This document shows positions 1-63,619 of a stretch of 64,000 bases of DNA, piece after piece. The DNA lies in contig NC_057382.1 in the NCBI RefSeq assembly GCF_016906535.1, forward strand, positions 620,001 through 684,000. Reading direction: 5' to 3'. A model generated the notes under the pieces. It worked only from the letters and a program-made list of their open reading frames with translations. It did not search any database and was not told the origin of the DNA. The DNA is from Rhizoctonia solani (taxonomy: Eukaryota > Basidiomycota > Agaricomycetes > Cantharellales > Ceratobasidiaceae). The translations under genes and the position numbers were made by a program. Position 1 is the first letter of the stretch, and every line of letters starts with the position of its first letter.

Positions 1-577
1 CACCGTCAAATGCATATGATAGCCGAGCATGGATCGATTGCCCAAGTGCCAACACTAATTAACCATGTAGTTGTATAAGCTTCATATGACACACTTTAAT
101 GAAAATTATGCTCATGAGCTGGCTAGACCTCGGCGCGGGGTTTATCTCGTGAAAATTAATCGCAAAAACTAAAGCAAGCAACGAGGCTAGGTACAATGAC
201 AACCAAGCCAGGTATAATGACGGCCAAGCCAGGTATAACCAATGAAGCTGACATGACATGGTGTAGCCGCGCAAAACAAAACTAAAGTGACAAACAGACC
301 GGCTCAGATGACTCTGGCTGTGGTCAAGGTGACTCGGGCTTGACGTGTACTCTCAGAGTGTACGATGAAAGAGCTAGAACGTCAAATGATGAAGAAATAT
401 CAAACCGCGTGCAACGAGTGGCCAGAGACAGCTGGTAGTCGCTGTGCCAACACGAGAGTCCAAGGCACGGGATGTAGTTATGTATAAAAGAAAAGCAGCG
501 GGAGGAGTGCTGAGCATCTTCAGCTCAGACTTACTCTACTACCAGCCTCTCGTTAGCCTACTACTACCTACACCATC
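1..577 (+). promoter_or_regulatory. Upstream region of PL3 copy 1, conserved with PL3 copy 2
   Basis: This non-coding stretch aligns almost end to end with the reverse complement of 21399 to about 21941, the upstream region of PL3 copy 2. The shared blocks include the segment around the GATCGATTG at about 32-40, the GCTCATGAGCTGGC block near 111, the CTTGACGTGT element at 339-348 and the GCAACGAGTGG block near 410. A TATA element lies at 483-490. Homology runs to the window edge, so the duplicated unit is longer than seen here. Confidence 0.7.
483..490 (+). promoter_or_regulatory. TATA box of PL3 copy 1
   Basis: TATAAAAG lies 95 bp before the ATG at 578. The same octamer occurs at a matching distance before PL3 copies 2 and 3 and at a similar one before copy 4, which supports its role. 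Confidence 0.65.
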
Positions 578-1568
578 ATGGTTCAGCTCTCGCTCGCTAC
601 CCTTGCCATCGTCGCCGGCATGTTCGCTCAGACTGCGCTCGCGGCTCCTTCGGAGAAGCGCGCGGCCAGCTGCTCGTTCCCCAACCCATCCGCATCCACC
701 AACGTCAAGCTGTCCGCAGCTCGCACCATCAAGGCTGGCGAGACCTTTGATGGTAAGTCCCAGATGTACCAACTTACTTCACATATACTTATATGCGTCG
801 ATTCGCAGGCAAGAACCTCCGCTACGGCCGTGGTGTCAAGTGCGGCGGTCAGAAGGAGGGCGGCACCAAGGACGCCGTCTTCATCCTCGAGTCCGGCGCT
901 ACTCTTGCGTAAGTTGCAGTCGCTGCTCCATTCAAGCTGGCTGTATATACATGTACTGACGCATATACTCCGCAGTAACGCCGTGATCGGTGCAGACCAG
1001 AACGAGGGTGTGCACTGCCAGGGCCCTTGCACCATCCGCAACGTCTGGTTCGAGGACGTGTGCGAGGACGCCATCACCATCAGGCAGAGCTCCGGCACCT
1101 CCACCATCACCGGCGGAGGCGCTAAGAGCGCGTCCGACAAGGTCGTCCAACACAACGGCGGAGGTGAGTTGTGCTCATAGCCTCAAACTTCAGCTCGTCT
1201 TATCATTTCCGCCCAGGTCTCGTCAAGATCGACTCGTACTGCGTCCAGGACTTCGGCAAGCTCTACCGCTCGTGCGGCAACTGTGGCACCCAGGTCAAGC
1301 GCCAGGTGCAGATCAGCAACATCATCGCTCGCAACGGCAAGTTGCTTGCAGGCGTGAACTCGAACTTCGGGGACGTAGCGACGATCGAAACCAAGACGAA
1401 CTCGTACACCAGCCTGACATCGGTGTGCGACACGTTCCAGGGAAACAACAAGGGCGACGAGCCGACGACGCTGACCAAGAACACGGCCAACGCCAGGTGT
1501 GCACGCTTCTCTCTCTGCTGTCGTTGCCATTCACTTATGAGAAATATTCGTACAGCTGCAAGTTCTGA
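578..1568 (+). CDS. Secreted pectate lyase, PL3 family (copy 1)
   Basis: Predicted extracellular pectate lyase that cleaves de-esterified pectin (polygalacturonate) by beta-elimination. Exons are 578-752, 809-908, 976-1163, 1217-1496 and 1556-1568, all with GT-AG borders, giving 251 aa, a normal length for fungal PL3. Residues 1 to about 22 form a signal peptide ([20 protein letters not shown]), followed by a KR site (residues 27-28) that may be cleaved by a Kex2-type protease. Family marks are [14 protein letters not shown], the GGGAK...[10 protein letters not shown] segment and many paired cysteines; the mature protein ends in CKF. The last exon is only 13 nt. Copy 1 differs from copies 2 and 3 by a few residues (for example GADQ versus GVDQ, TIETK versus TIDTK). 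The family is recognised from memory of the motifs; a PL3 assignment is firm, but substrate preference cannot be seen. Confidence 0.93.
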
Positions 1569-1980
1569 TTACCTTAGGGTGACTAGCTTCGTATATCTAC
1601 TTCTCAATGTTATATGCGTCTGTAGTAATCCATCATATCTTTTACTTTCGATTAAACTCATCATAACAACGCAATCAAAAATACTACAATGTTAGGTACA
1701 TATAGCGAACACTAGACAGCTTGTACTTGGTGCCCATAAACTTATATCGAGGGCAGACATAATCGCTTACCCCTCCTTCCAACCGGCGGGGAACTATTAC
1801 TCCTTATCCCAGGGAGTGATTTTTGGCGAAATATAAAAAGCTTCTCCAGGCCTCAAATTAAACCTCGCGCCCTAGCCTCATGAACCAACACGAATGGCTG
1901 TATTACCAACAAAAGATCTAAAACAGAAAATAAACTGGCTTCAAAGCCAACTAGATCTACAAGTTTATCTGACTTAATTT

Positions 1981-3965: not shown

Positions 3966-4428
3966 CTACAGAAGAAAAATCTCAGTCCACAGTGCTGTGA
4001 TACGAAGGCCGTTGACTCGCCTGCCATGTGTATGTACTTTGGGTATCGAAGACAGCTGCAGACCTGGAAGTTCCAGGCGTAAACGCACGTTCGAAGGCCC
4101 TGGTTTTGTGCACTTGGCAATGAGGCTATGCGAATGTCACATAGAGTAATGTTTCCTTTTACACGAAGCGACGGCGCTACCCGTTACGTAGAGGCCCCAC
4201 TTTGTACTTGGATGGAGCCAATTTGAGATTCTTAAGTCATACACTATTTTTAGCATCTATTTATTCATGTACTCAAACTCGTAAACCTAACACGATTGTT
4301 ATGAGATGAATAACCAATACATACAGTACGTCAACTCTCGAACCATTCCAGAGAATGCTTGAATTACGCGCTTACAAATACAATCATTTTAACCCCTTGC
4401 CTGAAGTAGACGACTTGGTCTCTCCTGC

Positions 4429-5947
4429 TCAAAAGTAATGGTGTTCCTCTGCAAGACTTTTGAGGTTTAGCGTACGATCTTCATTGGTACCTTTTCCGAA
4501 CCCACATTTCCTGTACGAATCAATAGCAGCAACTCCGGCTATGTAGGCCCGTATTTCCTCCCTCCATTGTCGCTTTGTAAATGCGCCATCGTGCAAAGCT
4601 CCCGGGATCACCACCCGTCTCGGACCGGTTCCCAGAGGGTTTGAAAGTTCTTGATGGACTTTTGAGGCGGCGTCAAGTATTTGTTCTCCCATTTGAGATG
4701 GAACAAGCTCGTCGTTTTCTGAATTGATTATGAGGATCGAGGGAGAGCTGAGTATGACGTTTTGAAGCGCGGAGGAAGGTGCCATAGGGGGTGAAAGCGA
4801 TAAACCACATTGTCGAATGGCGGAAAGCGCATCCCACTTGTCAAATACTAGCGGTCCGAGGTAATAATAAGGCAACCATTTCGAAGGATACACCGCACGA
4901 ACCATAGCTGGAATTGACGTAAAAGCATTTTCGAGCACGAGTCCGCGCACACGCGATGCTAATGATGTACTTCCGGTCGGAAGAGAGCCCAGCAAGTTCA
5001 CAGCAATCGAACCACCAATGGAATGTCCGTACAGGACAACCGGCGAATGAGGATATGCAGTCGAAATCCATTCGAGGACGGCGGTGTAATCTGACAAGAA
5101 GCCCGCCTCGGAAGGTGATCGCTTGGTAGATTTCCAGTATGAACGCGGCGCAACTGCGACTACCTTTACTTCTCGTTCAAAGCTGCCCATCAGCGTCTCG
5201 ACCAGCAAACGGAGCTTGGGAATTCGATGAAGTGGGTTCCCGGCATTCCCTAGAGAATGGTTAGCACGAACAAAAAAAGTCTATTAGAATTGACTCGCCT
5301 TGAAGATACATAACCACCAATGGGGGCACAGTGCTTTCAGTTGCCCGAAAGCGTGAGACAATTATTCCTGACAGTTTAACACTTTTCCCGTTTTGAATGG
5401 CAATTTCGTTTACAATTATCTCCCTGTCATTGACTCGTAATTCTTCTGAGCGACTTCCGATTGGTATACCACCTAGGAGAGATGTCAGAAGACTGAGGCG
5501 TCGAGGAGTCGACGCTTACCCATATAAATTATCTTTCGTTGAAATACTACCATCATCAAGCACTTTTCGCTATAGATTTATGGCCTGTATGTGCTTGAGC
5601 AAGAGTTGTCCCACCTTGTAAATCCATAACGCAAGGGGTAACCCTACGACAGCTCCGGCAACCAGCCAAGGCGATGGTGCATTAGATGACTCTGAGACGG
5701 CGAGAAGAGCGCTAACTGGTACAGAACCATCGCCCAAGAATTTCCGTATCGACTTGAGATCAAAACTAGAACGAGTGGGTAGTAGTGCCCTAGCCGTCGA
5801 AGAAGTCCGCAAAAGGTTATGATTACGGCGGAAACCAGAGTCGGACCGATATAACACCGTCCAGGGACGAGCCGTGGTTGGCGGCAGAGCGCTTTTCTGT
5901 GCTATCAAAACCGAGTAAAAGCGCATGTGGGTGGTGGTACTCTGCAC
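4429..5947 (-). CDS. Alpha/beta hydrolase, Bem46/ABHD13-like
   Basis: Predicted membrane-anchored serine hydrolase of 456 aa. Exons are 5947-5615, 5562-5520, 5472-5299 and 5249-4429. The catalytic triad is visible: nucleophile Ser in GHSIGG (about residue 260), Asp in NSENDELVP (about 363) and His in GALHDG (about 403). The LQGNAGNP segment is the oxyanion-hole region seen in Bem46/ABHD13 proteins, and FQRKIIYMG is a family block after the membrane segment. The N-terminal 60 residues are rich in Arg/Ser and poor in acids, with one membrane span near residues 88-105, so a mitochondrial or other organellar location is possible. The third intron (5298-5250) has a GC donor (CAAG/GCGAGT) and a normal AG acceptor. 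The ATG at 5947 was taken because the frame is open; a second Met lies seven codons later. Confidence 0.85.
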
Positions 5948-14466: not shown

Positions 14467-16713
14467 GGCGTCGGGCTTTGGATCAGTAAGAAAAACGGTG
14501 AAAGCTGCGCGCCGCTGTTCAACGTGTTTCGACCTGGGCCCTTGGTCATCAACCGAAGCGGACTCGTCCATCAGCCCAACTCCAACCACGTTCTTCTACA
14601 CCCTCGATGCTGTTTTGTTTACATTCCTCATGGTTATCCCGTACCAGACAGAACATCTACAGAAAACTGGTTACGAATAAACGATGTCTTGTATTGCCTT
14701 TTCCGGGTGTATTGCACGCAATCTCAAACTTCCCTCATGCCTGGGGTCGCCCTTCCTCGCTCGTCTGTCGGCACTCCGTACTCTGGGGCATCACTTCCTC
14801 AAGATGGAACGCGACCCTTGGCCGGACGCTCCGGTCCGAATCTCGCTTAGGCTGGAAAAAGCAAGTGCTTACTGGTCCAAAGGAACCTTCTCGGCGTGAA
14901 CCCCATCCGACCCTAGGCTTGTGCGTAAACCTAATAGACGGAGGAATGACCTCACTCCTCACTTTTTCCAACTGAGATTCCTTGTGCGTCTTCGAGTTCA
15001 TGTGTGTATACTGCTAACAACAGGGGGCTCATATTGACCATCATTTCGTGGCATATGCTCAAGGTTTGTAAGGACTCCTTGGGTCTCTTGTTGTTCTTCC
15101 ACCGGGATCGGGGTAGGATCCTTTTGGTCCGACTTGACTTTCCATTCTCGAGCGTTAATTGGAGTGGTATCCTGTGCCCAGGTTCGGATATGCCTAGACG
15201 AGTCGAGACTAGCCACCGTATGGATGTACGCGCTCTGCTAGTCATTGCTTCAAAACATTGCCACTCGCATCTCTTTTCTGTGCTCATTCCCGGTGTCCAG
15301 CCCTCCAGCTACTGCGATCGGCGTTCAACTTTTGATCTGCGCACATGAGCGCTTTCCGACTTGGATGTACGCCGCGCTCTGCTATGCAAATAACGCGCTC
15401 TGCGAGCATTAATTGGACACCCATCATTCTCACGATAGTCTTAAACTCCCAGCCTTGGTCCGTTTCGGCCCTTGCATACCCCCGCGCACCGGATCCTCCT
15501 CCCGGCAAGGCATCTTGTGATCAGCTCGGCGGATAAGTCTCATGCGCCCAGGACACTCGAATCATGCTCTCCATGGGTTCCTCTCATGATCCCTTTGACG
15601 GACGTGGCAACTGAGTTCCTCGTACCGGCGCATTCCTATCCCCTGTGACCCACCTGCTCAACTGGGGACGTCTTCGTGAGGTGAGCGACCGTACCCGGGA
15701 TCCTGGGGGTAAATGAATATATGCTTGATAGGGAAGGTGCGTAAACGTATAGTGGTCGAACAATAGGCTAGGAACTCGGGAGGCGTTTGGCGCTGTTGTG
15801 GTCAAAATGGATTTTGTCCCTTGCTTCAAGTTATCCAGGGCCACCACCGAAATGAACGTCATCATTGGAAGCTGGGATCCTATCTGATTTACGGCTCACC
15901 TCCCCCCTATGTCTACATTACAACATTCTGTCTTGTGAAAATTGTAATTTTTTACACGCTCTTCGATGGCTTCATATTAGAACTTCTCGAGTCTAAAAGC
16001 CAATTTTACGGAGCCTCATCCGAACTCGTCCAGAGCGTTTTGGTACTAGCGATTGTGGATACAAATTTGTGTTTATTAATGGATACATACCCTACGGCCA
16101 TCGAACCTTCAATTGGCCACGTAGGAACTCAAATCTTCAATTGGTCGTATCTTTCGATTTCATCGAATCGGACCGCTCGCGAGACTTGTTAAGCGGGTAT
16201 ACGACTCCTGGGACCGTTGCGCTTTTGGGTATTGGGCTTGCATTTTGGATGTGGGTGCACCGGTGCGAGGTACCACCGTCCATTGTACGTCCGAATAGTC
16301 AATATATTAGGTCAAATGAGACTGAAAGGCACCGTATCACCCGTTCTTATTGTCAACTATTATATCGCGTGGACGTGTAAGTTGATGGTCGGCAAGTTAA
16401 TCCTAGGAAACGGTATACGTCATATAGTATGCAGTATTGGACGCCGGGAGTGGGGAATTCGCGACCGGCGACCTCGGTTCCGTATTAAGAGCTCTTTCTA
16501 GGTAATAACATTACTTTTATCGGATCAAGAAGTGTTATTGGCTTCAAACAAGTATGTAACAAGTGCTTGAAGTACTCGAGGCTCTGAGACGTTCAGAGTT
16601 GTATCGAACGATGTGTAATGAGTAAATGAGGTCATATTCGGTAAACTATGAGTAAAGTCAAATACAACGCCGAGTTCGGCCAACCCTGAGAAGTTCGGCT
16701 CAAACAATTGCCT

Positions 16714-17061
16714 TCGGAACTTACAGCTACAAAGTGAACTCGGTAAGCAACTGCCGCACAAGTATAGTTACAAATACGCACTTGGAGTTGGACTGATTCT
16801 TGGTCAGAGTGGTGGGTTCTTTGCCGCTGCTGTTACCCTGGAACGTGTCGCAAATCGACTTGACGCTTGTGTAGGAGTTCGACTTGGTATCAATAGTCGC
16901 GACATCGCCATAATTCGAGTTGACACCAGCAAGGAGTTTTCCGTTCTTGGCAATCACCTGGCTGATTTGTACCTGACGCTTAGTCTGGGAGCTGCAGTTG
17001 CCGCACGAGCGGCAGAGCTTGCCAAAGTCCTGGACGCAGTATGAGTCGATCTTGACAAGGC
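16714..17061 (-). pseudogene. PL3 pectate lyase relic (exons 4 and 5 only)
   Basis: On the minus strand, 17061-16782 is a complete exon 4 of a PL3 gene: 280 nt, the same length as in all four intact copies, open throughout, beginning [15 protein letters not shown] and including the CGNC pair. A donor (GTGCGT) and acceptor lead to a last exon at 16726 encoding CKF, but the codon where the stop should be (16716-16714) reads CGA, which is one transition from the TGA stop of copy 1, so translation would run on. Exons 1-3, signal peptide and promoter are absent upstream; sequence beyond 17062 is unrelated. It is closest to the copy 4 type (for example [16 protein letters not shown]). The relic is therefore truncated by rearrangement and has lost its stop. 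Confidence 0.85.
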
Positions 17062-18300
17062 CTTGAATTGGTGGTAAAGTCATTTGTTTATCACACCATA
17101 CTGGGCCAACTTCGGGAAAACTTTGACAAACTGTGCTTAAGCTGGAAGGCACGGCACGTTAAAATTCACTTGGCAGGATGTATACTCGTATTTCAAACTC
17201 ACATATGGACGCAGTGGCACATGTGGCCTCGGGCATCTTGTTCGAATTCACTTGGTCGCTGCCGCATATAAAGTGTACCCAATTGAGTATAAACGCGGGT
17301 TAGAGTGGAAGCAATGGCCCATCGGTACCCTTGAATAAATATGTAGCTAGAGTGGTAGCCTCTTCGGGTGGCCGGAATTTTGTATCTCCCTCGAGTATGT
17401 GGACTTTGAACATCTATTGCATCTTGTAGGGTACTAGTCTCTACTAGCAGCGATCAAAATTAGGCCTTCAATTCCGATACTAGCGTTACATTTGTTGGCC
17501 TTAGACTCATAAGATTTTGAACTAGTAGGAAAGCCCTCGTACTTGACAACCGCAAATGTATGTACAATCCTTGTAGGGGATCGCTTCTAGCTCTGTTTGC
17601 GTATGGTGTACCAGTCAGACCCCAAAACCCCGCTATAGGTTGGCTCGAGGTAGCTAGGATCTCTTTGTCTTTACATAGACGGATATCTCCTTTGAGGAAA
17701 ATGCAATTAAATGAATGAGATACCGAAGTGAACTGGGGTGTATGATACCCTGACAGAAAGTTATTGGGTGGTAGCATCATCCTTCGATCGGGTACTGAGA
17801 TCGAGGCGCATACATTGGATTTTAATTTCTTCCCTTACCGTCATAGCTTTGCGAGAGCCGGTACCTGTACCGATTTTACAGTCACCGTCTCTCAAACTCG
17901 GCGTGAAGCTCCCTTTGCAGTTGAAACTTAATAAAATAATTTTTTAAGATAGTGCAACATTGCAAACATACGCATGTATACCCGCATTAAATATATGAGT
18001 TCAATATCGATTTTGAATTTCTATAGAAATGAGCCAAAAACATAGCTCAAATGTACATTAGATTCATCATTGAGTCCGTTTGTGAGACTATGTTTGAAGC
18101 ATAATCTCCGTTTTGTTGACATGTTCGACTTTGTGGAGACATCCTAGTGCCTTATTGATCTTGTCCACAGAGAGAATTTCGAAATTGTTACTAGATCGTT
18201 GGCGTGTACTACAGGTCACACCTTTGGGCCATAGAGCGTGAAGTCCCCTATCAGCTCCGTGAACGTCAACTGGCAGTCGAGATCCAAGTCAAACAAGGGC
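17062..18300. other. Intergenic region
   Basis: AT-rich DNA with no supported gene, RNA or mobile-element feature. It separates the PL3 relic from the 3' end of the LRR gene. Confidence 0.5.
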
Positions 18301-19798
18301 TTACGCGGCTATTGTTTTTGAAAAATTATCTGAAAGTCCAAATGATGTTTCTAGAGCGTAAAGATCGTTCCGGAAGATGTGCATATTAAAGTGCAGGCGG
18401 GATAGAGACGAAGATAGGCGAAGGGTATGCAGTTCGTCTATAGATGGCCAGTTGTTGAGATGAACCGACAACGAAAGTTGTTGAAGTCGGGGCATGTGTT
18501 TTGCCATAAATACGAGGTCATTAAACGTAAAAAGGTAATTACGTATTCGAAGATCTTCCAATTTTGGTAATGCAAGAGCGAGTTGCTCACTATCCCAGCG
18601 TGGTGCATCATAATATCCGCCCTTTCCTACCAGCCACAAGCGACGTAGAGGTAACTGCGCCAGGCTATCCATTATCTCGGCAGAAACCCATGATACATAT
18701 CCTGAGGAATTATTATCATAATCTAAGCGCAAGGTTGTCACCAGTGGACTACCCTGGCAAATAGAACGTACAAAGCCGCAGATATGGGCTTGTGTCACGT
18801 GTGTATTTATTCGCACATAAATGGAGGTAAGGTGTTGGAAGAGAGAAACAATATTCCACGTTTGATTCGCTGAGTCAGATGTAAAATGAGGGTTGATTTC
18901 TAAGTGCCAAAGAGAGGGGAAGCTATCATGAGGAAGAGATTCATACGGTGGTTTGTCTATCCTTTCCAAACTAAAGAGTCCTAGGGGATCATAGGGCTCG
19001 CTCAGAGTAAGAGACTCGAGGTAGGGTAAGCTACCAAGGGCTGCTAGCACTTGAGGATCTAAAGCCACGGGACCAATGCCAAGAATACGAAGGTTACGGA
19101 GCTGGGCCAGCGAGTTGGCTAGTTGACCCGCGTGAATGGGTCCCATACGGGTCTGCTCAGCAACATTACTCAACTTCAGCGAGCGGAGATGTGGGGACTG
19201 TTGTGCAATTGTAGAGACTAGATGAGATAGAATATATGGTTCCATGTAACGATGGGCCTGACGGGAGTGGTCGATTTCTACCATAGTCGGCGTCAAGAAT
19301 GCTGAAATAAATGGTACCGGGTCTGGAACTGTGTTCATACTAGGTATGGCCAAGGATATTCTCAGGATTTCGAGATTCGTTAGGATAGACTCTGTGCCGA
19401 CGAGTTTGAATAGCCTGTCCCATATTACGTTTGATTGCTTGTTTCTTCGATGTCGCGAAAGTTCTTTGACATATGGTGCATAAAAACGGACTCGCGTGAG
19501 TGCTTGCGCAACCAGAGGTTGCAAGTTCTAGCTTGCTTCAACCAGTGCAAGTTTCTGCTCGAGTCAAGCGGCGTACCTTTACGAGTGAGGTATCAAGGTC
19601 ATTCATTAGATAAGCACCAGAGCCAGGAATCAGTCTCATCAGTATTATAGGTGCGGTCTCAGGAAGGCATCTCCAGATGAGTGGGACTGCACAATCAAAG
19701 AATAAATGGGAAGTAATTATCAGTCTGGCAAGATCGGATTTTGGCACTTGTTCACAGATAAGATAAACAATTTCAGCTATCTCAAACAAGTTAGCCAT
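18301..19798 (-). CDS. F-box-like leucine-rich-repeat protein
   Basis: Predicted 482-aa protein with one 49-bp intron (19576-19528) joining exons 19798-19577 and 19527-18301 in phase 0. The first 50 residues (LFEIAEIVYLICEQV, DLARLIITSHLFF, LIWRCLP) follow the spacing of fungal F-box-like motifs. The remainder carries irregular leucine-rich repeats such as LRSLKLSNV, LRNLRILGIG, LPYLESLTLSEP and LEDLRIRNYLF. Proteins of this build are usually substrate receptors of SCF ubiquitin ligases and are strongly expanded in Agaricomycetes. The reading frame is clean. No partner or substrate can be inferred. Confidence 0.78.
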
Positions 19799-20196
19799 GG
19801 CCGCTACTCCCTAAAGTACAAACGTCGATTTGCGACCAAGAGCCTCTTGAGACTCTATAATCGAGTTCCGTATCACGTGTCATCGATCAATTGGCAATTC
19901 TACGCGGGCACAACGCGATGTAAGTTAATTTCCCTGGAGAATGAGTTCATTGTCGCTAGTCCTGCGAGACATCTAAGTGATCAGTTTGTCTTAAATAGTA
20001 AAGATGCCCTGAAAAAACCACCTTAGATTAAGCACGACAACATCCACGAGCTTACAATTATCAAAGCTACACCAAATTAATTAAAGCTTTGGGTCTGAAA
20101 ACACCAACAACAGCCACCATGACTACTGACCCTATTGCTAAAACCATGGGAGTTTTTGGCAGAGAAAATGTTTGCTTCAGACTTTGTTGATCAAAG
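19799..20196. other. Intergenic flank of the inverted duplication
   Basis: Unique sequence leading into the left arm of the PL3 inverted repeat. No gene seen; it does not resemble the right flank after 23488. Confidence 0.5.
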
Positions 20197-20404
20197 TACT
20201 ATATGTCCGCTATACCCTCTGTATTATTATGTACTCCATAGCCTCCTGCGAACTCAATATACATCCCAATAAATAGACAGATGCTCCAAACTGGGCCATG
20301 CGTAAGGAAGGAATCCAATAGTATTTAGCACTATTTACAGTTGGGATTATTGCTGTAGACAGTGATATGTAACAAGAGTATAATTATAAGTTAACCGGGT
20401 TTGG

Positions 20405-21398
20405 TTAGAACTTGCAGCTGTGCGACGATTACTTGTGAGCGAACAGCCACGATAGCAATAAAGATAGCGTGCTTACCTAGCGTTGGCCTTGTTCTTGGTC
20501 AGCGTCGTCGGCTCGTCGCCCTTGTTGTTGCCCTGGAACGTGTCACACACTGACGTCAGGCTGGTGTACGAGTTCGTCTTGGTGTCGATCGTCGCTACGT
20601 CTCCGAAGTTCGAGTTCACGCCTGCAAGCAACTTGCCGTTGCGAGCGATGATGTTGCTGATCTGCACCTGACGTTTGACCTGGGTGCCGCAGTTGCCGCA
20701 CGAGCGGTAGAGCTTGCCGAAGTCCTGGACGCAGTACGAGTCGATCTTGACGAGGCCTAGGCGGAAATGGTAAGACGAGCTGGAGTTTGAAGCTAGGCGC
20801 ACAACTCACCTCCGCCGTTGTGCTGGACGACCTTGTCGGACGCACTCTTGGCGCCTCCACCGGTGATGGTGGAGGTGCCGGAGCTCTGCCTGATGGTGAT
20901 GGCGTCCTCGCACACGTCCTCGAACCAGACGTTGCGGATGGTGCAAGGGCCCTGGCAGTGCACACCCTCGTTCTGGTCCACACCGATCACGGCGTTGCTG
21001 CAGGGTATATGCGTCAGTATATGTATATAAAGCCAGCTTGGATGCGACGACTGCAACTTGAACTTACGCGAGAGTAGCACCGGACTCGAGGATGAAGACG
21101 GCGTCCTTGGTGCCGCCCTCCTTCTGACCGCCGCACTTGACACCACGGCCGTAGCGGAGGTTCTTGCCTGCGAATCGACGCATATAAGTATATGTGAAGT
21201 AAGCTAGCACCTCGGACACTTACCGTCGAAGGTCTCGCCAGCCTTGATGGTGCGAGCTGCGGACAGCTTGACGTTGGTAGATGCGGATGGGTTGGGGAAC
21301 GAGCAGCTGGCCGCGCGCTTCTCCGAAGGAGCCGCGAGCGCGGTCTGAGCGAACATGCCGGCGACGATGGCAAAGGTAGCGAGCGAGAGCTGAACCAT
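20405..21398 (-). CDS. Secreted pectate lyase, PL3 family (copy 2)
   Basis: Predicted secreted pectate lyase of 251 aa. Exons on the minus strand are 21398-21224, 21167-21068, 20997-20810, 20756-20477 and 20417-20405, with the same phases as copy 1. The signal peptide, KR site, [13 protein letters not shown] block and terminal CKF are all present. The coding sequence is identical to copy 3 in the opposite arm. Unlike copy 3, its upstream DNA beyond the arm (21577 to about 21941) remains homologous to the upstream region of copy 1, so copy 2 keeps what looks like the original promoter of that lineage. Stop codon is TAA, whereas copy 1 uses TGA. Confidence 0.94.
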
Positions 21399-21485
21399 GA
21401 TGCTGTAGGTAGTAGTAGGCTAACGAGGGGCTGGTAGTAGAGTAAGTCTGAGCTGAAGATGCTCAGCACTCCTCCCGCCGCTTTC

Positions 21486-21493
21486 CTTTTATA
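21486..21493 (-). promoter_or_regulatory. TATA box of PL3 copy 2
   Basis: TATAAAAG on the minus strand, 88 bp before the ATG at 21398; mirror image of the element of copy 3. Confidence 0.65.
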
Positions 21494-21576
21494 CCTAACT
21501 ACATCCCGTGCCTTGGACTCTCGGGTTGGCACAGTGACTACCACCTGCCTCTGTCCACTCGTTGCACGTGGTTTGA

Positions 21577-22108
21577 CATTTCTTCATCATTTGATATTTT
21601 AATTCTTTTATCGCACACTCTCCGAGTACACGTCAAGCCCGAGTGACCTTGACCACAGCCAGAGTCACCCGGGCCAGTCCATTTGCCACTCCAGTTTCAT
21701 TTTGTGCGGCCACACCATGACGTGTCACCTCCATTGGTTATCTCTGGCGATTGTACCTAGTCCCGTTGCTGAGATTAGCCTTCGCGATTATTTCACGAAC
21801 TGTGTCCCGCACTGAGATCTGGCCAGCTCATGAGCATAGTTTACATGTATAATGCACTTTGTGAACCTTATTAAGTTACATGGTTAATTAGCGTTGGCAC
21901 TTGGCAATCGATCCACGTTCAGCTAATCATATACATTTGATTGTATATTAAATACAGGCATGGTTATTTGCATTAAGTACCTCTTACCGGTGTGTGCCTA
22001 GCGACTCTTCGGCCGGGCCGGATGAGTGAGTAGTGTGAAAGCGACGACACGTCAAAGCTGGCTTGGCACGATGACCGACAGAGCACTGTTACGAGCATTG
22101 AACGAATA
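21577..22108. other. Spacer of the PL3 inverted duplication (divergent promoter region)
   Basis: This 532-bp unique spacer lies between two divergently transcribed identical genes. The left part (21577 to about 21941) matches, in reverse complement, the upstream region of PL3 copy 1. The right part contains 22041-22071, which resembles the upstream region of PL3 copy 4 at 63862-63890 (shared ACACGTCAA followed by TGGCTTGGCA). The two promoters facing each other are therefore of different descent. Confidence 0.75.
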
Positions 22109-22191
22109 TCAAACCACGTGCAACGAGTGGACAGAGGCAGGTGGTAGTCACTGTGCCAACCCGAGAGTCCAAGGCACGGGATGTAGTTAGG

Positions 22192-22199
22192 TATAAAAG
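22192..22199 (+). promoter_or_regulatory. TATA box of PL3 copy 3
   Basis: TATAAAAG 88 bp before the end of the presumed promoter at the ATG (22287 is 95 bp from the first base of the element). Confidence 0.65.
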
Positions 22200-22286
22200 G
22201 AAAGCGGCGGGAGGAGTGCTGAGCATCTTCAGCTCAGACTTACTCTACTACCAGCCCCTCGTTAGCCTACTACTACCTACAGCATC

Positions 22287-23280
22287 ATGGTTCAGCTCTC
22301 GCTCGCTACCTTTGCCATCGTCGCCGGCATGTTCGCTCAGACCGCGCTCGCGGCTCCTTCGGAGAAGCGCGCGGCCAGCTGCTCGTTCCCCAACCCATCC
22401 GCATCTACCAACGTCAAGCTGTCCGCAGCTCGCACCATCAAGGCTGGCGAGACCTTCGACGGTAAGTGTCCGAGGTGCTAGCTTACTTCACATATACTTA
22501 TATGCGTCGATTCGCAGGCAAGAACCTCCGCTACGGCCGTGGTGTCAAGTGCGGCGGTCAGAAGGAGGGCGGCACCAAGGACGCCGTCTTCATCCTCGAG
22601 TCCGGTGCTACTCTCGCGTAAGTTCAAGTTGCAGTCGTCGCATCCAAGCTGGCTTTATATACATATACTGACGCATATACCCTGCAGCAACGCCGTGATC
22701 GGTGTGGACCAGAACGAGGGTGTGCACTGCCAGGGCCCTTGCACCATCCGCAACGTCTGGTTCGAGGACGTGTGCGAGGACGCCATCACCATCAGGCAGA
22801 GCTCCGGCACCTCCACCATCACCGGTGGAGGCGCCAAGAGTGCGTCCGACAAGGTCGTCCAGCACAACGGCGGAGGTGAGTTGTGCGCCTAGCTTCAAAC
22901 TCCAGCTCGTCTTACCATTTCCGCCTAGGCCTCGTCAAGATCGACTCGTACTGCGTCCAGGACTTCGGCAAGCTCTACCGCTCGTGCGGCAACTGCGGCA
23001 CCCAGGTCAAACGTCAGGTGCAGATCAGCAACATCATCGCTCGCAACGGCAAGTTGCTTGCAGGCGTGAACTCGAACTTCGGAGACGTAGCGACGATCGA
23101 CACCAAGACGAACTCGTACACCAGCCTGACGTCAGTGTGTGACACGTTCCAGGGCAACAACAAGGGCGACGAGCCGACGACGCTGACCAAGAACAAGGCC
23201 AACGCTAGGTAAGCACGCTATCTTTATTGCTATCGTGGCTGTTCGCTCACAAGTAATCGTCGCACAGCTGCAAGTTCTAA
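22287..23280 (+). CDS. Secreted pectate lyase, PL3 family (copy 3)
   Basis: Predicted secreted pectate lyase of 251 aa, identical to copy 2. Exons are 22287-22461, 22518-22617, 22688-22875, 22929-23208 and 23268-23280. All five exons have the same lengths in every intact copy (175, 100, 188, 280 and 13 nt). Only about 180 bp of promoter is shared with copy 2; further upstream the sequence instead resembles that of copy 4. Copy 3 is convergent with the GT32 gene, with 237 bp between stop codons. Confidence 0.94.
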
Positions 23281-23517
23281 CCAAACCCGGTTAACTTATA
23301 ATTATACTCTTGTTACATATCACTGTCTACAGCAATAATCCCAACTGTAAATAGTGCTAAATACTATTGGATTCCTTCCTTACGCATGGCCCAGTTTGGA
23401 GCATCTGTCTATTTATTGGGATGTATATTGAGTTCGCAGGAGGCTATGGAGTACATAATAATACAGAGGGTATAGCGGACATATAGTATCATGGTCGTAG
23501 GAATGTGAGACCTATGT

Positions 23518-24684
23518 TCAGAGTTTCCAGTTGCGTTTCCAGTAGTGCACAACCCATCGCGCCCCAGTCATCTGCTTACATCTTTCTGGGTTGAATGTCG
23601 ACAGTGCCATCCAGCATACACATTCTTGAGCTGCGGTCAAGACATGCGGTCGTGGCCGATCCCAAGCAAAAGGATAGATAACCTCGGGTGAAAACAGCAC
23701 CACAGGAGCAATAGCTTCGTTGGAAGTAGGATGAAACGCGTTATTTTCTGCGCCGACGGGGGACCGGAGTACGGAGGGCGAGTAATTGATGATGGATCGT
23801 CGTAACGAAACTGAACCAGAGATATATTCTATGGAGTCTGATTAATAAATACTATTCGACTATTAAAATGGGTAAGACTTACCAGGCCCCGGAGCTGGAA
23901 CGGAATGATCCCAGCTTCTCGCTCGAGCCCAATCAACGGCGTCTTGCGCGGCTATAAGCCATAAAGGATGCCCGGGAGCCGAAGCAGCCATAAATGCGTT
24001 CGGTATTCCGTGCAGTTTGTGGGATGAGGTTTCCATTGTACCCAGGAATGCTGTTGGAGCACCTGTGAACCTTTGCGCTTTTACTAGAGTGTCCAAAGGA
24101 GAGACCGCTTCGGAGTCAATATCAGCGTATATCCCGCCAAAAGTGTACCTGTAGGAATCACAGTTCAGGGCGTTCGCAAGAAATATTATGAGACGTAATC
24201 ACATATACAAACTCCGTGTAAAGTGGGCTCGATAGATATCAGAGGGTAAGGCTTCATAAGCTTTAAGCCATTCCGGATAGAAAGTTTCAACTAGGGCCCG
24301 ATTGTCACCATTGTCCCATAGTACGTAAGTCCACTTTGAGTATGCGGATCGCCATGATGTCACTAGTGAATGATAGACGGGGGGCACGTCTTGCGCCTTC
24401 CAGCTTTGATGAATAATCTCGCCTGGGACTATCGAAGAAGAAACCGCCCTTCCCTCTCGGATCGCAAGAAAATGGGCCATAAGTGACGAAGCATTAATAG
24501 ACGGAGCGAGGTCGGTAGTGTATACTGTTTTACTCGCATATTCGGGGTATATAGAACGGCAAATTGCACTACGAATAGGTGTGGAGCCGAATTCAAGTAG
24601 GCTCAGAGCGATCAAAGAGGCCATAAGGATGGCGGCAACTGTGATACGAATGTACGCTTTGGTTGGTATGCGCACAGTTCTCAT
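23518..24684 (-). CDS. GT32 glycosyltransferase, OCH1-like (type II membrane protein)
   Basis: Predicted Golgi glycosyltransferase of 353 aa that would add a sugar, typically mannose from GDP-mannose, to glycans or lipids. Exons are 24684-24209, 24148-23883 and 23837-23518. It begins with a short basic tail and one membrane span (about residues 13-31), then the family entry motif IPGEIIHQSWK-like segment (PGEIIHQSWKAQDVPP), WTYVLWDN, and the metal-binding DXD motif in GGIYADID (about residue 168). A C-terminal region with HYWKRNW closes the catalytic domain. The frame is clean. The 3' end nearly touches the border of the PL3 inverted repeat. OCH1 itself is only the best-known relative; the acceptor is not predictable. 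Confidence 0.85.
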
Positions 24685-25529
24685 GGTAGACTGAGCCTAA
24701 GCGGGGGGGATAACGGAGGAAGGGCGACAGGCTGGGGAAACACGCGTTATATTATTAGCGTTCTGAGGCTAGAGTATATGTACGCATTTGAAAACTGGGT
24801 AGGTTGGCTAATGCGATGCTCCCGCAGTCAGTTTTGAATCCCGGCAGATCAACTCTATGCTCAACAGAGCATCTGTTTTTAGAAAAGAGTGATTGAATGA
24901 CGTTAATCGGCCCTTCTTAACGTGACCAAACCGCGTAATGACGAGAGTACGCAACGTGGAATTGAGAACAGAAAAAGTCATGGCAGGGAACCGATAAAAA
25001 CATTCTATTGAACAAGACTTTAGATTATGATTAAAGTTCTCCTTACTTTGCCCATAAATACTCCAGTTTACCACGGGCTGCGTTTCTTAGTCATCGTTTC
25101 TATCGAACACATGTATCCCTGTGTTTCTCGCACGTATCACACGCCTACAGTGTGTGAATCATCTTTGTTTGATTGCACACAAGCGACTTTATTCATCGCA
25201 TTAAACCATCTCAATTTTACTTCTTTATTTTCTAGGTCTTTCAACGAGCTCAGTATCGCTTCATTCATACTGCGTATATACACTTGAGCTATTGATCTTT
25301 TATCTAGTTCAATACATTCTCACCGACTATAGCGTCCCAAATCATTTGTATATTGCATACAGCACGGTTCAAGGCCTCGACATATATCTGGGGCGCAGTC
25401 GATCAATATTGACCCAGGAACCCCGCAGCACAATATTGATAGCGGAGACAGAACTCGGAACATTGTATTCCGCTTGGCCCGCGTTCAGAGGTTTATCCAC
25501 ATACACTCTCCTTTTGGTAGACCCTTGAT
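24685..25529. other. Intergenic region
   Basis: AT-rich, no supported gene. The longest frame (minus strand, 24808-25074) has no recognisable feature. Presumably includes the GT32 promoter. Confidence 0.5.
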
Positions 25530-25626
25530 GACTGCTTACCAAAGTGGTTACTGGGTTGCCCTGCTACTATAGGTTCTGTCAAGGCAATGGTCTTTGACCG
25601 CGTGTGTTCGAATCGCACAGTAGTCG
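25530..25626 (+). tRNA. tRNA-Ser (anticodon GCU) with a short intron
   Basis: Cloverleaf drawn by hand: acceptor stem 25530-25536 (GACTGCT) pairs with 25619-25625 (AGTAGTC, one G-U) and G25626 is the discriminator; D stem CCA/TGG; anticodon stem TTGCC (25556-25560) pairs with GGCAA (25583-25587); anticodon GCT at 25563-25565. A 15-nt intron (about 25567-25581) sits just after position 37, the canonical eukaryotic site. A class II variable arm (GGTC-TTT-GACC) marks Ser/Leu-type tRNA, and the T arm GTGTG-TTCGAAT-CGCAC is regular. The internal A-box reads TACCAAAGTGG, a departure from the usual TGGCNNAGTGG, compensated within the D stem. Transcription would end at the T run at 25630. Confidence 0.85.
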
Positions 25627-25629
25627 TTG

Positions 25630-25635
25630 TTTTTT
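25630..25635 (+). terminator. RNA polymerase III T-run terminator
   Basis: Six T residues four bases after the tRNA-Ser discriminator base; the usual pol III stop signal. Confidence 0.75.
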
Positions 25636-25989
25636 GTGAATGCAGTCAAAGACCCCCGAATAAAATGGTGTGAATTGGCTTTACTAGCGATGAATGCTCC
25701 AAGGCTCAAACTCCAGCTGGTTGAGTGGAGTAAAACATACATGCGTGGGCCACCCCAATGGGTTTGTGTTCAAGATACAACTGTAGTCATTCTCGCTTAT
25801 GTCATGTATTAGAATCACCAGATATAACAATTGGTATGATTGATTTGTGAATTACTATGCGTTAAGCAACCCCAAGGAAGACACGGCACTACTATTGACA
25901 CAATTGGACCACATGTGAAATACAGGGTATATCATAGACCGAAGAATAAAGGCAACAACATAAAAAAACGGGCTAGTCATGAAATACAA
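25636..25989. other. Intergenic region
   Basis: Short non-coding stretch between the tRNA and the 3' end of the Argonaute-fragment gene. No PAZ, MID or PIWI coding sequence is visible here, so the Argonaute-like frame is not continued. Confidence 0.55.
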
Positions 25990-28900
25990 TCAACGAAACG
26001 TGGGAGTGATCCTGAGGGATGGTTGAAGTTAGCGCCAAAAATCAGTGTGACAGTATATGAGCTTACTGGGGAGTGATTACAGCGATCTTCTTCAATTGGA
26101 CTACGTACACTTGTGGTTCCTGCCCAGACTCAGCTAGTTCTATCGAGAACTAACAAATAAACTCAACATTAGATTCAGAAAGGTCAAGTTGCTCAAAACA
26201 TTGGCTCACCTCTTGTCGGCTGCTGACATTCAGGCGCCGATTTGAGTACAACATCTTCTTTCCATCGAAGCTTGGACGTGCAAGGACTGGGAAGATTTGT
26301 GGAGCGACCTGCTTCTGGAGGATATCGAAAATGTTCTTCCTGGTGATGGGGGAAAGAGATTCGGAAGGAGAAATCCCTAAAAACAATGATAAGCAGCTGC
26401 CGTCATTCATTGGGATAGCCATCACTTACGAACTAAACAATTCAGAGAGTTGAAGAGGGGCAAAACAATTATGTTAGGATAACACCTTTCTATACTGTGG
26501 TGATACGTACCATCATATTGATATACACTGTTTTCAGGCAATCGAGCTCCGTAGTTCTCACTCGTAAGAAGAATAGGCGAGGTGAGCGGTTGGATGTAAG
26601 CGCTACTCGTAGTTCGCGCCGTAGAAATCTTTGCGGGCTTCGGGGCCTTGGCCCGGATAATCTTATCGTTCAAGACTGGTACCAGGTTAGGCTTAGGTGG
26701 TGTGGTAATCTTCGAAGTCGCTTTAGTTTCCCTTGAAGGCGAAGGTGTATGAGGTTGAGAGGTCTTGTTTGGCACTGAACCCGACTCTTTGGGGGAGCGC
26801 TTCGGTCGAGAGCGATGACTAGAATCGCCAGAGGTGCGATCACGAGACGAAGGTGGAGTTGTCGCAGTGACCGGTATCGCTGTTCCGTGGGATCGTGGAA
26901 TACTAGTACTGCCTAAACAATCTCCTCGGGCCGATTGTGTATGACTCCAGTTCTCATAGGTGGGGATGTTACGGGAGCCTGTGAACTCGAATCTAGATAC
27001 CTGTGGGACGGAACGCACAGGGCTCCTAGCGGGAGCATTGGTCGTAGGGGGCATGGCTGGGGATGCAATACGCTGTTTAAGGATTCCGCGGGGAGCAGGC
27101 TTGGGCTCCCGATCGACATTAGGCGCTTGAGGAGTGTATGCGGGTAGCGAGTCCTCTGAAGATCGAGGAGACTGGAAAGCGACAGATGGGGTGTTAGGTG
27201 CTGGGGTGACAACTCGAGTGGGGTCTGAGGGGCGTTTCACAGGGCGTTCACTCTTCTCGTTGGTGAGAATGCTTTGAGCATGGTGTGGTGTCTGAGGAAT
27301 GGGTAGTACCGTGTCATCGGGCCTGGGCGGGCGTCGTGGCTGTGGAGAATCTGTTTTCGGCTTTATGGACGGTTGGTCCGTCCTCATCGAGACGACAGGA
27401 ATGATCGGAGGCATGGTCGAAATAATCGGGGTGCGGGCTGATGCTGTCTGCTCATCGGAACGTGTAGGAGCAGTAACTGAATCCCGTGCTAGAGGTACCC
27501 TAGGTTTGACCGGTGGGATGGATGTTACCATAGTGGGTTGATACGGCCATCTCGACCATGTTGTCCTCTCCATCGCAGGCGACTCAGGCGAAGTTGGCGA
27601 AGCTGCCTTACGGATCGGGACGAGCGTGACTTTAGGCCGCCTCTCCCGCTCTCCAGCGACTTTGGGATTATGGGAGACTATAGCCGGTGTTTCGATTGGT
27701 TTGGCCGCGACTGGGTTGATCTCCACAATTGTAGGTTCAACCAACTTGACTGACTTGACTTCTACAGGCTTGGTTTCAACCGCTTTGACTTCCGTAGCTA
27801 TAGTCTCTATAACCTGGACTGCTACAGGCTTGATCTCCATAGGCACTGCCTCTACGGGTTTAACTATGACTGGCTCGACCTCGACCTCCATAATCTTGAT
27901 CGGCTTGGCTTCCACAGACTTGGTTTCCATAGGTGGGACCTCAACAGGCTTGGCTTCCACAGGCTTAATCTCGATCGAGGGTGAAGACGATCCTCCGAAG
28001 CCGAACCATCGCAATGGCGAAAACCCATCCAAAATTCTTGACGATGCCTTCGTAGCCGTGTCAGACTTCGCGGGCACGTCGTTGGTGGGAAGGTCGTTCG
28101 ACAAAACGATTGGAATGGGTATTTCGTTTGTCGCCGCATTAGGCTTGGACTCGAGCTCTGCTTGGGCAGGGGGTTGTTTGGCCGCCGAGTTGGGATACGG
28201 GCTCACTGTAGGGACAGGCGATGGAACAGGGATGGTGATAAGGGGTGGCATAGCGGGTCGCATTGTCGTTTTCTCAGCTGGCGAGGGGGAACTGGTGTCG
28301 ATAGATGTAATAGAAGACGCCAATCTACCACGCTTTGGTGACTGTGATTCCTGGGGTACAGCAGCGGCCTCACGTCCGGACAAATCGAGGTCATGCGAGT
28401 ATTGACTTGCTCGCTCGCTGACGGGCGATGGGGAAAGAGGAATGATGACCTCTGCTAAATCGATGTGCTCGAAGGTGGGGCGGACCGGGCTGGGAGCGGG
28501 ACTGATAGGCATCGGAAGCGCTTCATAAATCTCGTCCTGTTTGGTCGTGCTAGGCGTTACCGATCGGAGAGGGGTGAAGGCTTCGTGAGCTACTGATGTG
28601 GTTGATGGTGGCCGGGGGCTTAGGACAATAGACCGAGGGGGAGAAGAAGCAATGGATGGAATACTTGTGACTGGGGATTGCGGTAGATCAACGAGTATAG
28701 GCTCAGGTTCGGGATCAGACAAAGTTTCGGGCACAAATTCAACGATATCGAGCTCCGCGGTCGATGGTGCCGGTTGAGAAGGTACTAGATTGCTGTGAGA
28801 CAGTTGGGCAACGCTGATAGTAGAAGTAGCCTCTGCGTATTGGTCATCAAGGAGCTCGATAACCTCGATCTTAGGAGTTAACTCCATCTGGCTGTTGGGG

Positions 28901-60800: not shown

Positions 60801-61214
60801 GTGTTGGTTCACATCATACCCACTTTTAATGACTTGGGCGACTACGATCTTTCTGCATTTCAGGTTATGATTTAGGCTTTCTCCGTAGTACAGTGTTTTT
60901 GGAATGAATATAATAGTTTTTGTTGGATTATAGACATTTGACTTCACTTTATCAGTATTACCGCAGAAATTCCTGGGCAGGTAACGTTTGGAAAAGTACA
61001 GAACAAACCAACTTAGGTCTGATTACATCAGCGACTCAGGGACTAGTCGACGTGTTATGACCAAATCTGAACCCAGTGTCCTAGCTCTCTTTACCCACCA
61101 CCGTCGCACGTACACGAACCACATTAGTATTCCTATAGGTATGTATATTTAGGTAGATGTGGCTTGTAACAAATTTTATAAACTCACCTATCAACTCCCT
61201 AGCGTTGCTTCAGC
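60801..61214. other. Intergenic region
   Basis: Promoter-side region of the small membrane protein gene; nothing else seen. Confidence 0.45.
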
Positions 61215-61898
61215 ATGGATTTCGAACCGCTACTCGAGTTCTTACAACCTCATCTCCCACCTTTTGTTTTTCACTTGTTATTAAACCTGGCTTCCTCACT
61301 TGCCTCAACTATCAATACGCTTTCTTATGCTCTAACTCATCCTTCTGACCCCGACTCTACCGAGGCTCTGAAGTCGCTCGTGCCTTCGCTTTTATCATTC
61401 TTGGCCCTATACTTCACGATCGTGTCTGTCTATCGAACGATACGAAGTGCCATCAATCTAGTTTTTTTCTTGGTCAAGTGGATTGGTATATTGTCCATGC
61501 TAGTTCTCGGTTTCTCTTATGCTATGGGTGGCAATGCCGCAGAAAGCTTTGGTGATCTGGCTGCTCGGCTTCACGAATTTGAGGCCGCGTACAAAGAACA
61601 TGCTCAACCTCCCAAAGAAGGAAAAACGGGCCCCCGGAGTGTCTGGGATCACTTCGACGCGCGTGACCGTGACAGCAAGGATAGCGGGAAGCTCTGGTGG
61701 AAAAAAGACAAGGATACAACTCCCCCAGCCTCGACGTTCGGGTACGTTTATGAGCAGGTCTCATCCTACAAATGGGCTTGGGACGCTTTGGTTGATACTC
61801 GGGAGGACACTGGTTCGGAACGAGTCAAGCGGGCTAAAAAAGAAAAGAGTAAACCTCAGGTGAACGCCAAGAGCAAACCTGGCCAGCGTGTTCGATAG
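61215..61898 (+). CDS. Small membrane protein, probably APQ12-like (nuclear pore assembly and biogenesis)
   Basis: Intronless 227-aa product. Two hydrophobic spans are visible at about residues 52-70 (LVPSLLSFLALYFTIVSVY) and 79-103 (INLVFFLVKWIGILSMLVLG), joined by a short basic turn (YRTIRSA). The C-terminal half is hydrophilic, ends very basic (RVKRAKKEKSKPQ) and would face the cytoplasm or nucleoplasm. This arrangement and the VYRTIRSAINLVFFLVK segment resemble the fungal APQ12 family of nuclear-envelope/ER proteins that affect pore biogenesis and lipid balance. The match is by pattern only; an unrelated two-span ER protein is the alternative. Confidence 0.7.
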   Translation: MDFEPLLEFLQPHLPPFVFHLLLNLASSLASTINTLSYALTHPSDPDSTEALKSLVPSLLSFLALYFTIVSVYRTIRSAINLVFFLVKWIGILSMLVLGFSYAMGGNAAESFGDLAARLHEFEAAYKEHAQPPKEGKTGPRSVWDHFDARDRDSKDSGKLWWKKDKDTTPPASTFGYVYEQVSSYKWAWDALVDTREDTGSERVKRAKKEKSKPQVNAKSKPGQRVR

Positions 61899-62458
61899 AC
61901 GCACTCAAGTTGGGGCATGTGTCGCTAGTATTTGGTTCATTATTGGTACGTCAAGTAGCCTCTAATAATTGGATGCATTTGCCTTACATGAAATTATTAT
62001 CTAGCATTTTAATTTGTACCTTCTTGTATGTCGAACCTCTTTTGCTTTTGTTGCTATCTTGGGGGTCATCAGTACCCTATGGAGTTTGGTGAAAATAGAA
62101 CTACATGGGGTCACCAAGTAGTTGGGCGAGGAAATACAAACGTAGATTTCTTTTATATTCATGATTTTGTGTTATTCATAAGTTAGTGCCGCCGAAGCTA
62201 CTCGAAGGGGTCAGCGGAGGGCGCTAAATGGGCGTGGGCAATATATTTTCCTCCTACGAACATAAAAACGTCAAAATCGCGCAATGCCGGCAGTTTTAAT
62301 CAAAAGTTGTTTCCCTCCGAGGTCTTCTAAAGTGGAATTGAAACTAAAAGGACCAGCATTGTAGAGAGTTCCTCGTAAGAAAGAAAAGGAATTTATTGTG
62401 TATATATAGCCAATTAAGTGCATACAAATAGAGTCATAATCGACGAAATGGCCCCCAG
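61899..62458. other. Intergenic region between convergent genes
   Basis: 3' flanks of the APQ12-like gene and PL3 copy 4; no further feature. Confidence 0.45.
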
Positions 62459-63577
62459 CTAGAACTTGCAGCTGCGAATCGAAAGCACGACAGAGTTAGC
62501 GCTCGCATTAGAGGGAGGAAGGGGGAGGGGGGGAACGAAGATAGCAAGAGAGAGAGAAAGGGTTATGCCGAAAGAGAAAGAGAGAAAGAGAGAAAGAGAG
62601 AAAGAGAAAAGATCAAAACGGATCACTCACTTGGCATTCGACTTGTTCTCCGTCAGCATAGGAGGCTCCTGGCTCTTGTCGTTGCCCTGGTACGTGTTGC
62701 AGATCGACTTGACGCTTGTGTACGAGTTCGTCTTCGTGTCGATCGTCGCTACATCCCCGTAGTTCGAGTTCACGCCTGCGAGCACCTTGCCGTTGCGAGC
62801 GATGATGTTGCTGATCTGCACCTCGCGCTTCACCTGCGTGCTGCAGTTGCCGCACGATCGATAGAGCTTGCCGAAGTCCTGGACGCAGTACGAGTCGATC
62901 TTGACAAGACCTGGACGAGACTGATGAGGAAACTCCAAGCTCTGAGCTGGGATTACAACTCACCTCCGCCGTTGTGCTGAATGACCTTGTCGTCGGCGTT
63001 CTTGGCGCCTCCGCCGGTGATGGTGGTCGTACCGGAGCTCTGCCTGATGGTGATTGCGTCCTCGCATACGTCCTCGAACCAGACGTTGCGGATGGTGCAA
63101 GGTCCCTTGCAGTGGACGCCCTCGTTTTGGTTTTTGCCGATCACGGCATTGCTAGTGGATATATGCGCATGAGTATACATACGTGTGTGCATGTGATGGA
63201 ATAAAGGCCGCAGACAGTAGGCTACTTACGATAGGGTAGCGCCGGACTCGAGCAGGAAGACAGCATCCTTGTCGCCACCTTCCTTCTGGCCACCGCATGT
63301 GACACCGCGGTGGTAGCGGAGGTTCTTGCCTGTGAGTACGTGGTTGAACGTTGTTTGAGTGAGCGTCGAGCAATGGTAGGCCTGGATGCAAGAACTGCTT
63401 ACCGTCAAAGGACTCGCCGGCCTTGATGGTGCGAGCGGCATCGAACTTGACGTCGGTGGATGAAGATGGGTTCGGGAACGAGCAGCTGGCTGCCCGTTTT
63501 TCAGAAGGTGCAGCGAGCGCGGTTTGGGCAAGGACGCCGGCGATGACGGTCAAGGTAGCGAAAGAGATATGAACCAT
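62459..63577 (-). CDS. Secreted pectate lyase, PL3 family (copy 4, divergent)
   Basis: Predicted secreted pectate lyase of 251 aa. Exons are 63577-63403, 63329-63230, 63151-62964, 62910-62631 and 62471-62459; lengths equal those of the other copies exactly. Signal peptide [22 protein letters not shown] site, [13 protein letters not shown] block, [10 protein letters not shown] and terminal CKF are present. It differs from copies 1-3 at many positions (for example [26 protein letters not shown]), so it is an older paralogue and the likely source lineage of the relic at 16.7-17.1 kb. Introns are unrelated in sequence to those of copies 1-3; the last intron carries a purine-rich repeat. Confidence 0.93.
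62510..62615. repeat. Purine-rich (GAGAAA)n tract in the last intron of PL3 copy 4
   Basis: Low-complexity GA-rich DNA with several GAGAAA units, inside the intron between exons 4 and 5 (read as pyrimidine-rich in the transcript, which may aid 3' splice-site use). Confidence 0.75.
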
Positions 63578-63584
63578 AGTATAC

Positions 63585-63619
63585 TAGTAGTAGAGGTAGT
63601 AGAGGTAGTAGAGGTAGTC
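63585..63619. repeat. 9-bp tandem repeat in the 5' leader of PL3 copy 4
   Basis: Three to four copies of TAGTAGAGG just before the ATG. Copies 1-3 carry a shorter CTACTACCTAC-type run at the same place, so the repeat has expanded in copy 4. Confidence 0.75.

Follow-up and report, generated by a model that had tools for sequence, protein, structure and literature searches.

In Rhizoctonia solani AG1-IA XN, two divergent genes for predicted pectate lyases form a near-perfect palindrome at ~642 kb on contig 13 (pair C). This palindrome is very probably an old gene pair in which conversion transfers sequence between the arms, and in which an occasional crossover inverts the spacer, an interpretation drawn from sequence comparisons within one strain and one assembly. 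Near-identical duplicates are often taken to be recent, and the presence of four sister loci and of a second copy of the surrounding segment contradicts this by a wide margin.

The window, i.e. the whole stretch of 64,000 nucleotides that was analysed, was searched for inverted repeats between positions 19000 and 25000 (seed 12, minimum 20; the identity value of 100% given by this search is rounded). A single inverted repeat was found, with two 1390-nt arms and 512 nt between them. Together with alignment of the arms, the search places the left arm at 20197..21586 (minus strand) and the right arm at 22099..23488 (plus strand), with the 512-bp spacer at 21587..22098. When aligned base by base, the arms have 3 mismatches in 1390 positions, at 21577, 21581 and 21582 (partners 22108, 22104 and 22103), all of which lie within 10 bp of the spacer, and neither the coding sequence (0/756) nor the introns (0/238) differ. 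The first-pass annotation had described reverse complements over 1380 bp (20197-21576 and 22109-23488) that showed no difference where compared, and the alignment confirmed this with 0 mismatches. Its 532-bp spacer corresponds to the edge of the mismatch-free part, and when the three inner mismatches are allowed the arms become 1390 bp and the spacer 512 bp. An exact match of 1380 bp between the arms cannot be due to chance. In the 600 bp past the outer end of each arm, no similarity was found between the left and right flanks.

Each arm contains an intact PL3 gene of five exons, which has GT-AG boundaries at all four introns and encodes 251 residues, in agreement with the earlier description of two divergent PL3 genes with identical introns and flanks. 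The right gene lies at 22287..23280 on the plus strand (exons 22287-22461, 22518-22617, 22688-22875, 22929-23208 and 23268-23280) and was identified by translation and by profile and structure matches. The left gene lies at 20405..21398 on the minus strand (exons 21398-21224, 21167-21068, 20997-20810, 20756-20477 and 20417-20405) and was identified by translation of the left arm, its coordinates being the mirror of those of the right gene (43685 - x). The product matches the profile PF03211, which we take to be polysaccharide lyase family 3 (PL3), with 270.5 bits against a cut-off of 25 over residues 37-232, and the best related solved structure is 1ee6, a pectate lyase (E 1.3e-28). The genes of pair C encode predicted PL3 pectate lyases, their enzyme activity being assigned by family. 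The arms extend 188 bp 5' of the ATG and 208 bp 3' of the stop, and therefore a TATA-box-like motif (22190..22200 for the right gene, plus strand; mirror copy 21485-21495) lies inside the arm while the remaining intergenic region lies in the spacer.

A search of the genome (40,703,773 bases, 16 contigs) with the PF03211 profile gave at least 89 exon-level matches, and eight head-to-head PL3 pairs were found. Four are on contig 13, at ~546 (A), 620 (B), 642 (C) and 684 kb (D), and four are on contig 11 in the reverse order. The arms of the eight pairs are 97.6-99.8% identical within a pair (BLAST) and the spacers are 512-928 bp, each of them non-repeated, while the pairs differ among themselves. 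With lengths of 1169-1390 bp, the arms are shorter than the 10 kb that is exceeded in large palindromes of the mammalian type (PMC5997626). The right arm of pair B (396..1632, plus strand) and the left arm of pair D (62403..63615, minus strand) also fall in the window; the left arm of B, part of its spacer and the right arm of D lie outside it. In contrast to the inverted pairs, a direct tandem triplet of PL3 genes on contig 12 (L053, 1126900-1132600) is 72-78% identical. Fifteen further PL3 records from 13 places, of 2.5-5.0 kb each, yielded a self-repeat only in L008, which is part of the contig 12 triplet and has one 98-bp match; partners farther away would escape records of this size. By translation, the contig 13 copies of A, B and C keep full reading frames, and pair D was resolved short of its last exon. 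On contig 11, several PL3 copies in pairs D, B and A (L013, L015 and L016, respectively) have shifted reading frames, and their contig 13 counterparts are intact. The frequent gaps and scattered indels in several contig 11 PL3 copies may be consensus error.

The two sets of four pairs lie on a doubled segment. A contig 13 probe at 0.2 Mb has a 100% match on contig 11, 0.2 Mb from the contig end, while for the probes at 1.0 and 2.0 Mb the genome search gave no match other than the probe itself. PF00562, an RNA polymerase family, is found at three places in the genome, which fits a haploid set. Together, these results indicate that a segment was doubled and not the entire contig. That one chromosome is represented twice in full, as contig 11 and as contig 13, was considered and rejected, since the probes at 1.0 and 2.0 Mb are single. 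At the points tested, the doubled segment includes 0.2 Mb and 0.54-0.69 Mb on contig 13 and ~1.40-1.55 and 1.90 Mb on contig 11, in reverse order and at ~98-100% identity; the stretches of the window that were compared are 1-4698, 16307-26225 and 59213-64000. The segment probably reaches the chromosome end, and its presence on both contigs may reflect either real duplication or a second nuclear haplotype that has become attached to a different chromosome (on haplotypes and chromosome number, see PMC12774589; PMC13113206). Between the contigs, the flanks of pair A have 0 mismatches in ~4.7 kb and those of pair D have 5 in ~5.5 kb, compared with 26 in ~5.9 kb for pair C and 71 in ~5.8 kb for pair B, in addition to indels.

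The divergent arrangement of the genes can be traced through the intergenic regions. From ATG to ATG, that of pair C (21399..22286) measures 888 bp and is collinear with its three contig 13 counterparts, which measure 978 (A), 945 (B) and 934 bp (D). Collinear alignment was seen in all six comparisons of the four regions, with z-scores of 7.8 to 76 (60 mononucleotide shuffles for each comparison, the regions of B and D having been reversed to run in the direction of A and C), and alignment in the opposite orientation was always poorer (z 2.6 to 39.5). Homology between B and C is unmistakable along the full length and up to both ends, and the spacers of these two pairs are related across nearly their full length, at 74%. 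Other local matches are short, the best E values being 9e-9 (A-C), 1.6e-5 (C-D), 2e-4 (B-D), 7e-4 (A-D) and 0.009 (A-B). The best-kept stretch of the four regions, as judged by eye, is 22043..22074, which is a candidate shared regulatory element. Given the similar intergenic lengths and the collinear alignment, the divergent pair is most likely older than the split into four loci. A recent inverted duplication implies that no older copy of the arrangement exists, whereas pair B has the same arrangement, and so has contig 11.

How far the arms reach beyond the stop varies by locus (~64, 152 or 208 bp), and no alignment is obtained between the 3' flanks of pairs B and C. For the outer 208 bp of each pair C arm (20197-20404 and 23281-23488), all four matches in a whole-genome search belong to pair C on contigs 13 and 11. 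Arm-to-arm conversion of an inherited palindrome alone is an insufficient account of this stretch. The arms of pair C may have grown outward since the pairs separated, and a copying tract that ran outward beyond the homology would account for it.

Set against the age of the arrangement, the genes within each locus are strikingly alike. At 4-fold sites only 0-2 differences are seen in 8/8 pairs, with 0/136 (A), 1/136 (B), 0/134 (C) and 1/126 (D) on contig 13 and 0/136 (A), 2/132 (B), 0/134 (C) and 0/126 (D) on contig 11. Between loci on contig 13, 10-45% of 4-fold sites differ in 6/6 comparisons (left arms: B-C 9.8%, A-B 30%, A-C 32%, B-D 34%, C-D 40% and A-D 44%; right arms similar). Introns differ at 46/235 positions between B and C, at none of 238 between the two contig 13 arms of C, at 10/235 between those of B, and at 19/268 between the contig 11 arms of D. 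Judged by 4-fold sites and by the related intergenic regions, the arms resemble each other far more closely than would be expected for an arrangement of this age, and an old arrangement with a young arm identity points to homogenisation locus by locus. The locus had been described as either very recent or undergoing continued conversion. The recent part of this statement is very likely wrong, as the four loci share the arrangement yet differ so widely at 4-fold sites; conversion as such is supported, by the likeness of the arms within a locus and by the comparison of the two contigs.

Every pair C substitution between contigs 13 and 11 that is off the inner edge of the arms falls in one tract of ~535 bp (22606..23140 on the plus strand, mirror 20545-21079; arm positions 508-1042). 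This conversion tract has 40 substitutions, all of them common to both arms, and outside the tract and the inner edge there are 0 substitutions. When gapped columns are omitted, pair C has 40 sites at which the two arms on a contig group together, none that group orthologous arms, and 3 diagonal sites, at the inner edge. The gaps of pair C include a 3-bp indel common to both arms and a 3-bp deletion inside the tract in a single contig 11 arm. Pair B has 13 sites that group arms within a contig versus 3 that group orthologous arms, plus 25 singletons. Pairs A and D have 0 sites of the former kind versus 2 orthologous-arm sites each, D having 20 singletons as well. Homogenisation after the separation of the two segment copies, in the form of changes common to both arms, is visible in two of the four loci (B and C), and arm conversion may still be active today.

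Within the tract, the differences from the four B arms number 8/529, 14/529, 16/518 and 20/526 for the contig 11 sequence of pair C (C11), compared with 36/532, 36/532, 35/521 and 32/529 for the contig 13 sequence (C13). The C11 base is present in at least one B arm at 35 of the 40 sites and the C13 base at 14. Pair B is favoured as the donor because of the low distance between C11 and B, and the simplest account would be that a B-like tract entered one contig 11 arm of pair C and was then copied to the other, a direction suggested by these distances. Pair A as an outgroup gives no polarity as to which tract copy is derived, siding with C11 at 18 sites, with C13 at 17 and with neither at 5, and pair D sides with them at 20, 16 and 4 sites, respectively. 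GC bias is not evident in the tract, where 20 sites gain G/C from C13 to C11, 17 lose it and 3 do neither. A tree built from the 16 arms unites the two C13 arms with a support of 100, those of B on contig 11 with 99 and the C11 arms with 72, while the contig 13 arms of B form no clade (support 39).

The spacer of pair C is identical on the two contigs (512/512) and is inverted on contig 11 relative to the flanks. Both orientations of a spacer between the same flanks were found at this one locus of the four, the spacers of pairs A, B and D having the same orientation on both contigs. The three mismatches at the inner edge of the arms (22099..22108, mirror 21577-21586) travel with the spacer, as sites 22103, 22104 and 22108 follow its orientation. 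An inversion of this kind would be the product expected from crossover between inverted arms.

These observations can be brought together if an ancestral divergent PL3 pair with a common intergenic region of ~0.9 kb was copied to the four loci A-D. Arm-to-arm copying at each locus would then cause mutations, or tracts from a neighbouring pair, to end up in both genes or in neither, and crossover between the arms would invert the spacer and leave both genes whole. The enzymology could be homologous recombination or replicative template switching. Recombination between inverted repeats, unlike that between direct repeats, deletes no gene, and inverted pairs may persist because inversion leaves the genes whole.

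Conversion in the B/C lineage also seems to have reached upstream of the genes. Proximal promoters of 188 bp each were compared using 300 shuffles; in A and D, the arms take in the 25-38 bp beside the ATG, and past this stretch the left and right promoters are of different types. The left promoters of A and D resemble each other (z 6.5), as do the right promoters (z 4.0), versus z-scores of -0.8 for A-left with D-right and 2.8 for A-right with D-left. Left and right promoters of the same locus gave z 9.9 and 16.8, consistent with the 25-38 bp they have in common. In B and C, the promoters on both sides are of the kind found on the right in A and D (z 6.3 to 11.0), with no match to the left-hand type (z 0.9 to 1.8). 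This suggests that conversion extended upstream in the B/C lineage and gave both genes one kind of core promoter, as far as can be judged from short and diverged sequence.

If a single gene at locus C had been duplicated in inverted form very recently, without conversion, this would account for arms that are exact across 1380 bp, including introns and flanks, and for an outer 208 bp that matches nowhere except pair C (4/4 matches). Such an event is nevertheless very improbable, as contig 11 holds the same pair in the same place with 40 changes common to both arms, pair B shares both the architecture and a 74% related spacer, and the intergenic regions of the four loci are related. Alternatively, single genes that had an upstream region in common from the start could have given rise to the palindromes independently, locus by locus, which would fit the variation in outer arm ends (~64, 152 or 208 bp past the stop) and the lack of alignment between the 3' flanks of B and C. 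Similar breakpoints would then be needed four times, given ATG-to-ATG distances of 888-978 bp and B-C homology up to both ends, and A and D have in common a left-hand promoter type that is distinct from the right-hand one; we regard separate origins as very improbable. PL3 is a conserved enzyme, and the full frames of the contig 13 pairs A, B and C are compatible with protein-level selection keeping two genes alike. That such selection acts alone is scarcely conceivable, as the identity extends to the introns, to upstream sequence and to the 208 bp that follow the stop, and pair C has 0 differences at 4-fold sites; for the identity outside the coding sequence this explanation is refuted.

Errors of assembly, i.e. 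a fold-back read or short-read correction that forces an identical consensus, must also be considered. Short-read correction was applied to this assembly (Pilon; PMC7884421) and could erase true differences between arms, and scattered indels in several contig 11 copies indicate an uneven consensus quality. However, a spacer of 512-928 bp is present in 8/8 pairs, the contig 13 arms of pair B still differ at 22 sites, and the mean long-read length of 11.5 kb (PMC7884421) exceeds the 3.3-kb structure. A fold-back, which the first-pass annotation had named as the outcome that would undo the palindrome, would not yield related intergenic regions at four loci, and is unlikely too in view of the non-repeated spacers and the mutual differences between pairs. 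Overall, there is only a small chance that the palindrome is an artefact. The palindrome had also been called fragile, for which we found no sign, as 8/8 pairs are standing in the assembly and their spacers, at 512-928 bp, are rather long for a hairpin to form.

Conversion between the arms of an old gene pair has counterparts in other organisms. Mammalian sex-chromosome palindromes likewise have inverted arms that are >99% identical, conversion, and an old arrangement with young sequence (PMC8981503). The fungal palindromes differ from these in their arms of 1.2-1.4 kb, in the four sisters evolving separately, and in the second copy of the segment on another contig. At short inverted repeats in Saccharomyces cerevisiae, template switching makes the arms alike and inverts the spacer (PMC8604942), and both outcomes are the same as at pair C. 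Unlike these short repeats, the PL3 arms are whole genes with a tract of ~535 bp, and because of this, recombination between the arms appears at least as likely as template switching. Stress-inducible Hsp70 genes are also duplicates homogenised by conversion (PMC5865164), although they belong to another family, and the PL3 case shows spacer inversion and a neighbour-like tract directly.

PL1 and PL3 were named as expanded in R. solani XN, in a study of the same assembly (PMC7884421). The passages on PL expansion in that study do not mention head-to-head pairs, and its main text does not contain the string 'palindrom'. Among the matches listed from the open-licence literature, none describes palindromic or head-to-head fungal PL genes in its title or the start of its abstract. 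The component processes are known, and the PL3 locus is a clear new example of them. At pair C the two products of inverted-repeat recombination, namely conversion and an inverted spacer, are recorded together in a compact natural example, and the gene family concerned is one whose expansion in this crop pathogen has been reported (PMC7884421). Gene counts, ages and short-read mapping of such duplicates can mislead. If the rate of recombination is high, this would help to explain the persistence of inverted pairs where direct repeats diverge or vanish.

An increase in gene dosage was also raised in the first-pass annotation, and more enzyme from two genes is plausible. More tentatively, the four PL3 palindromes might be recombining modules, in which arms are copied, tracts are donated to neighbours, promoters are overwritten and spacers flip frequently, with both orientations present among the nuclei of one multinucleate mycelium. 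We consider this possible but doubtful; if true, one useful mutation would be doubled at once and then spread along the cluster.

A relic of PL3 exon 4, of 277 bp and 78% identical to the arm, lies at 16787-17063 in the window with no partner gene adjoining, and its counterpart on contig 11 is near 1453646.
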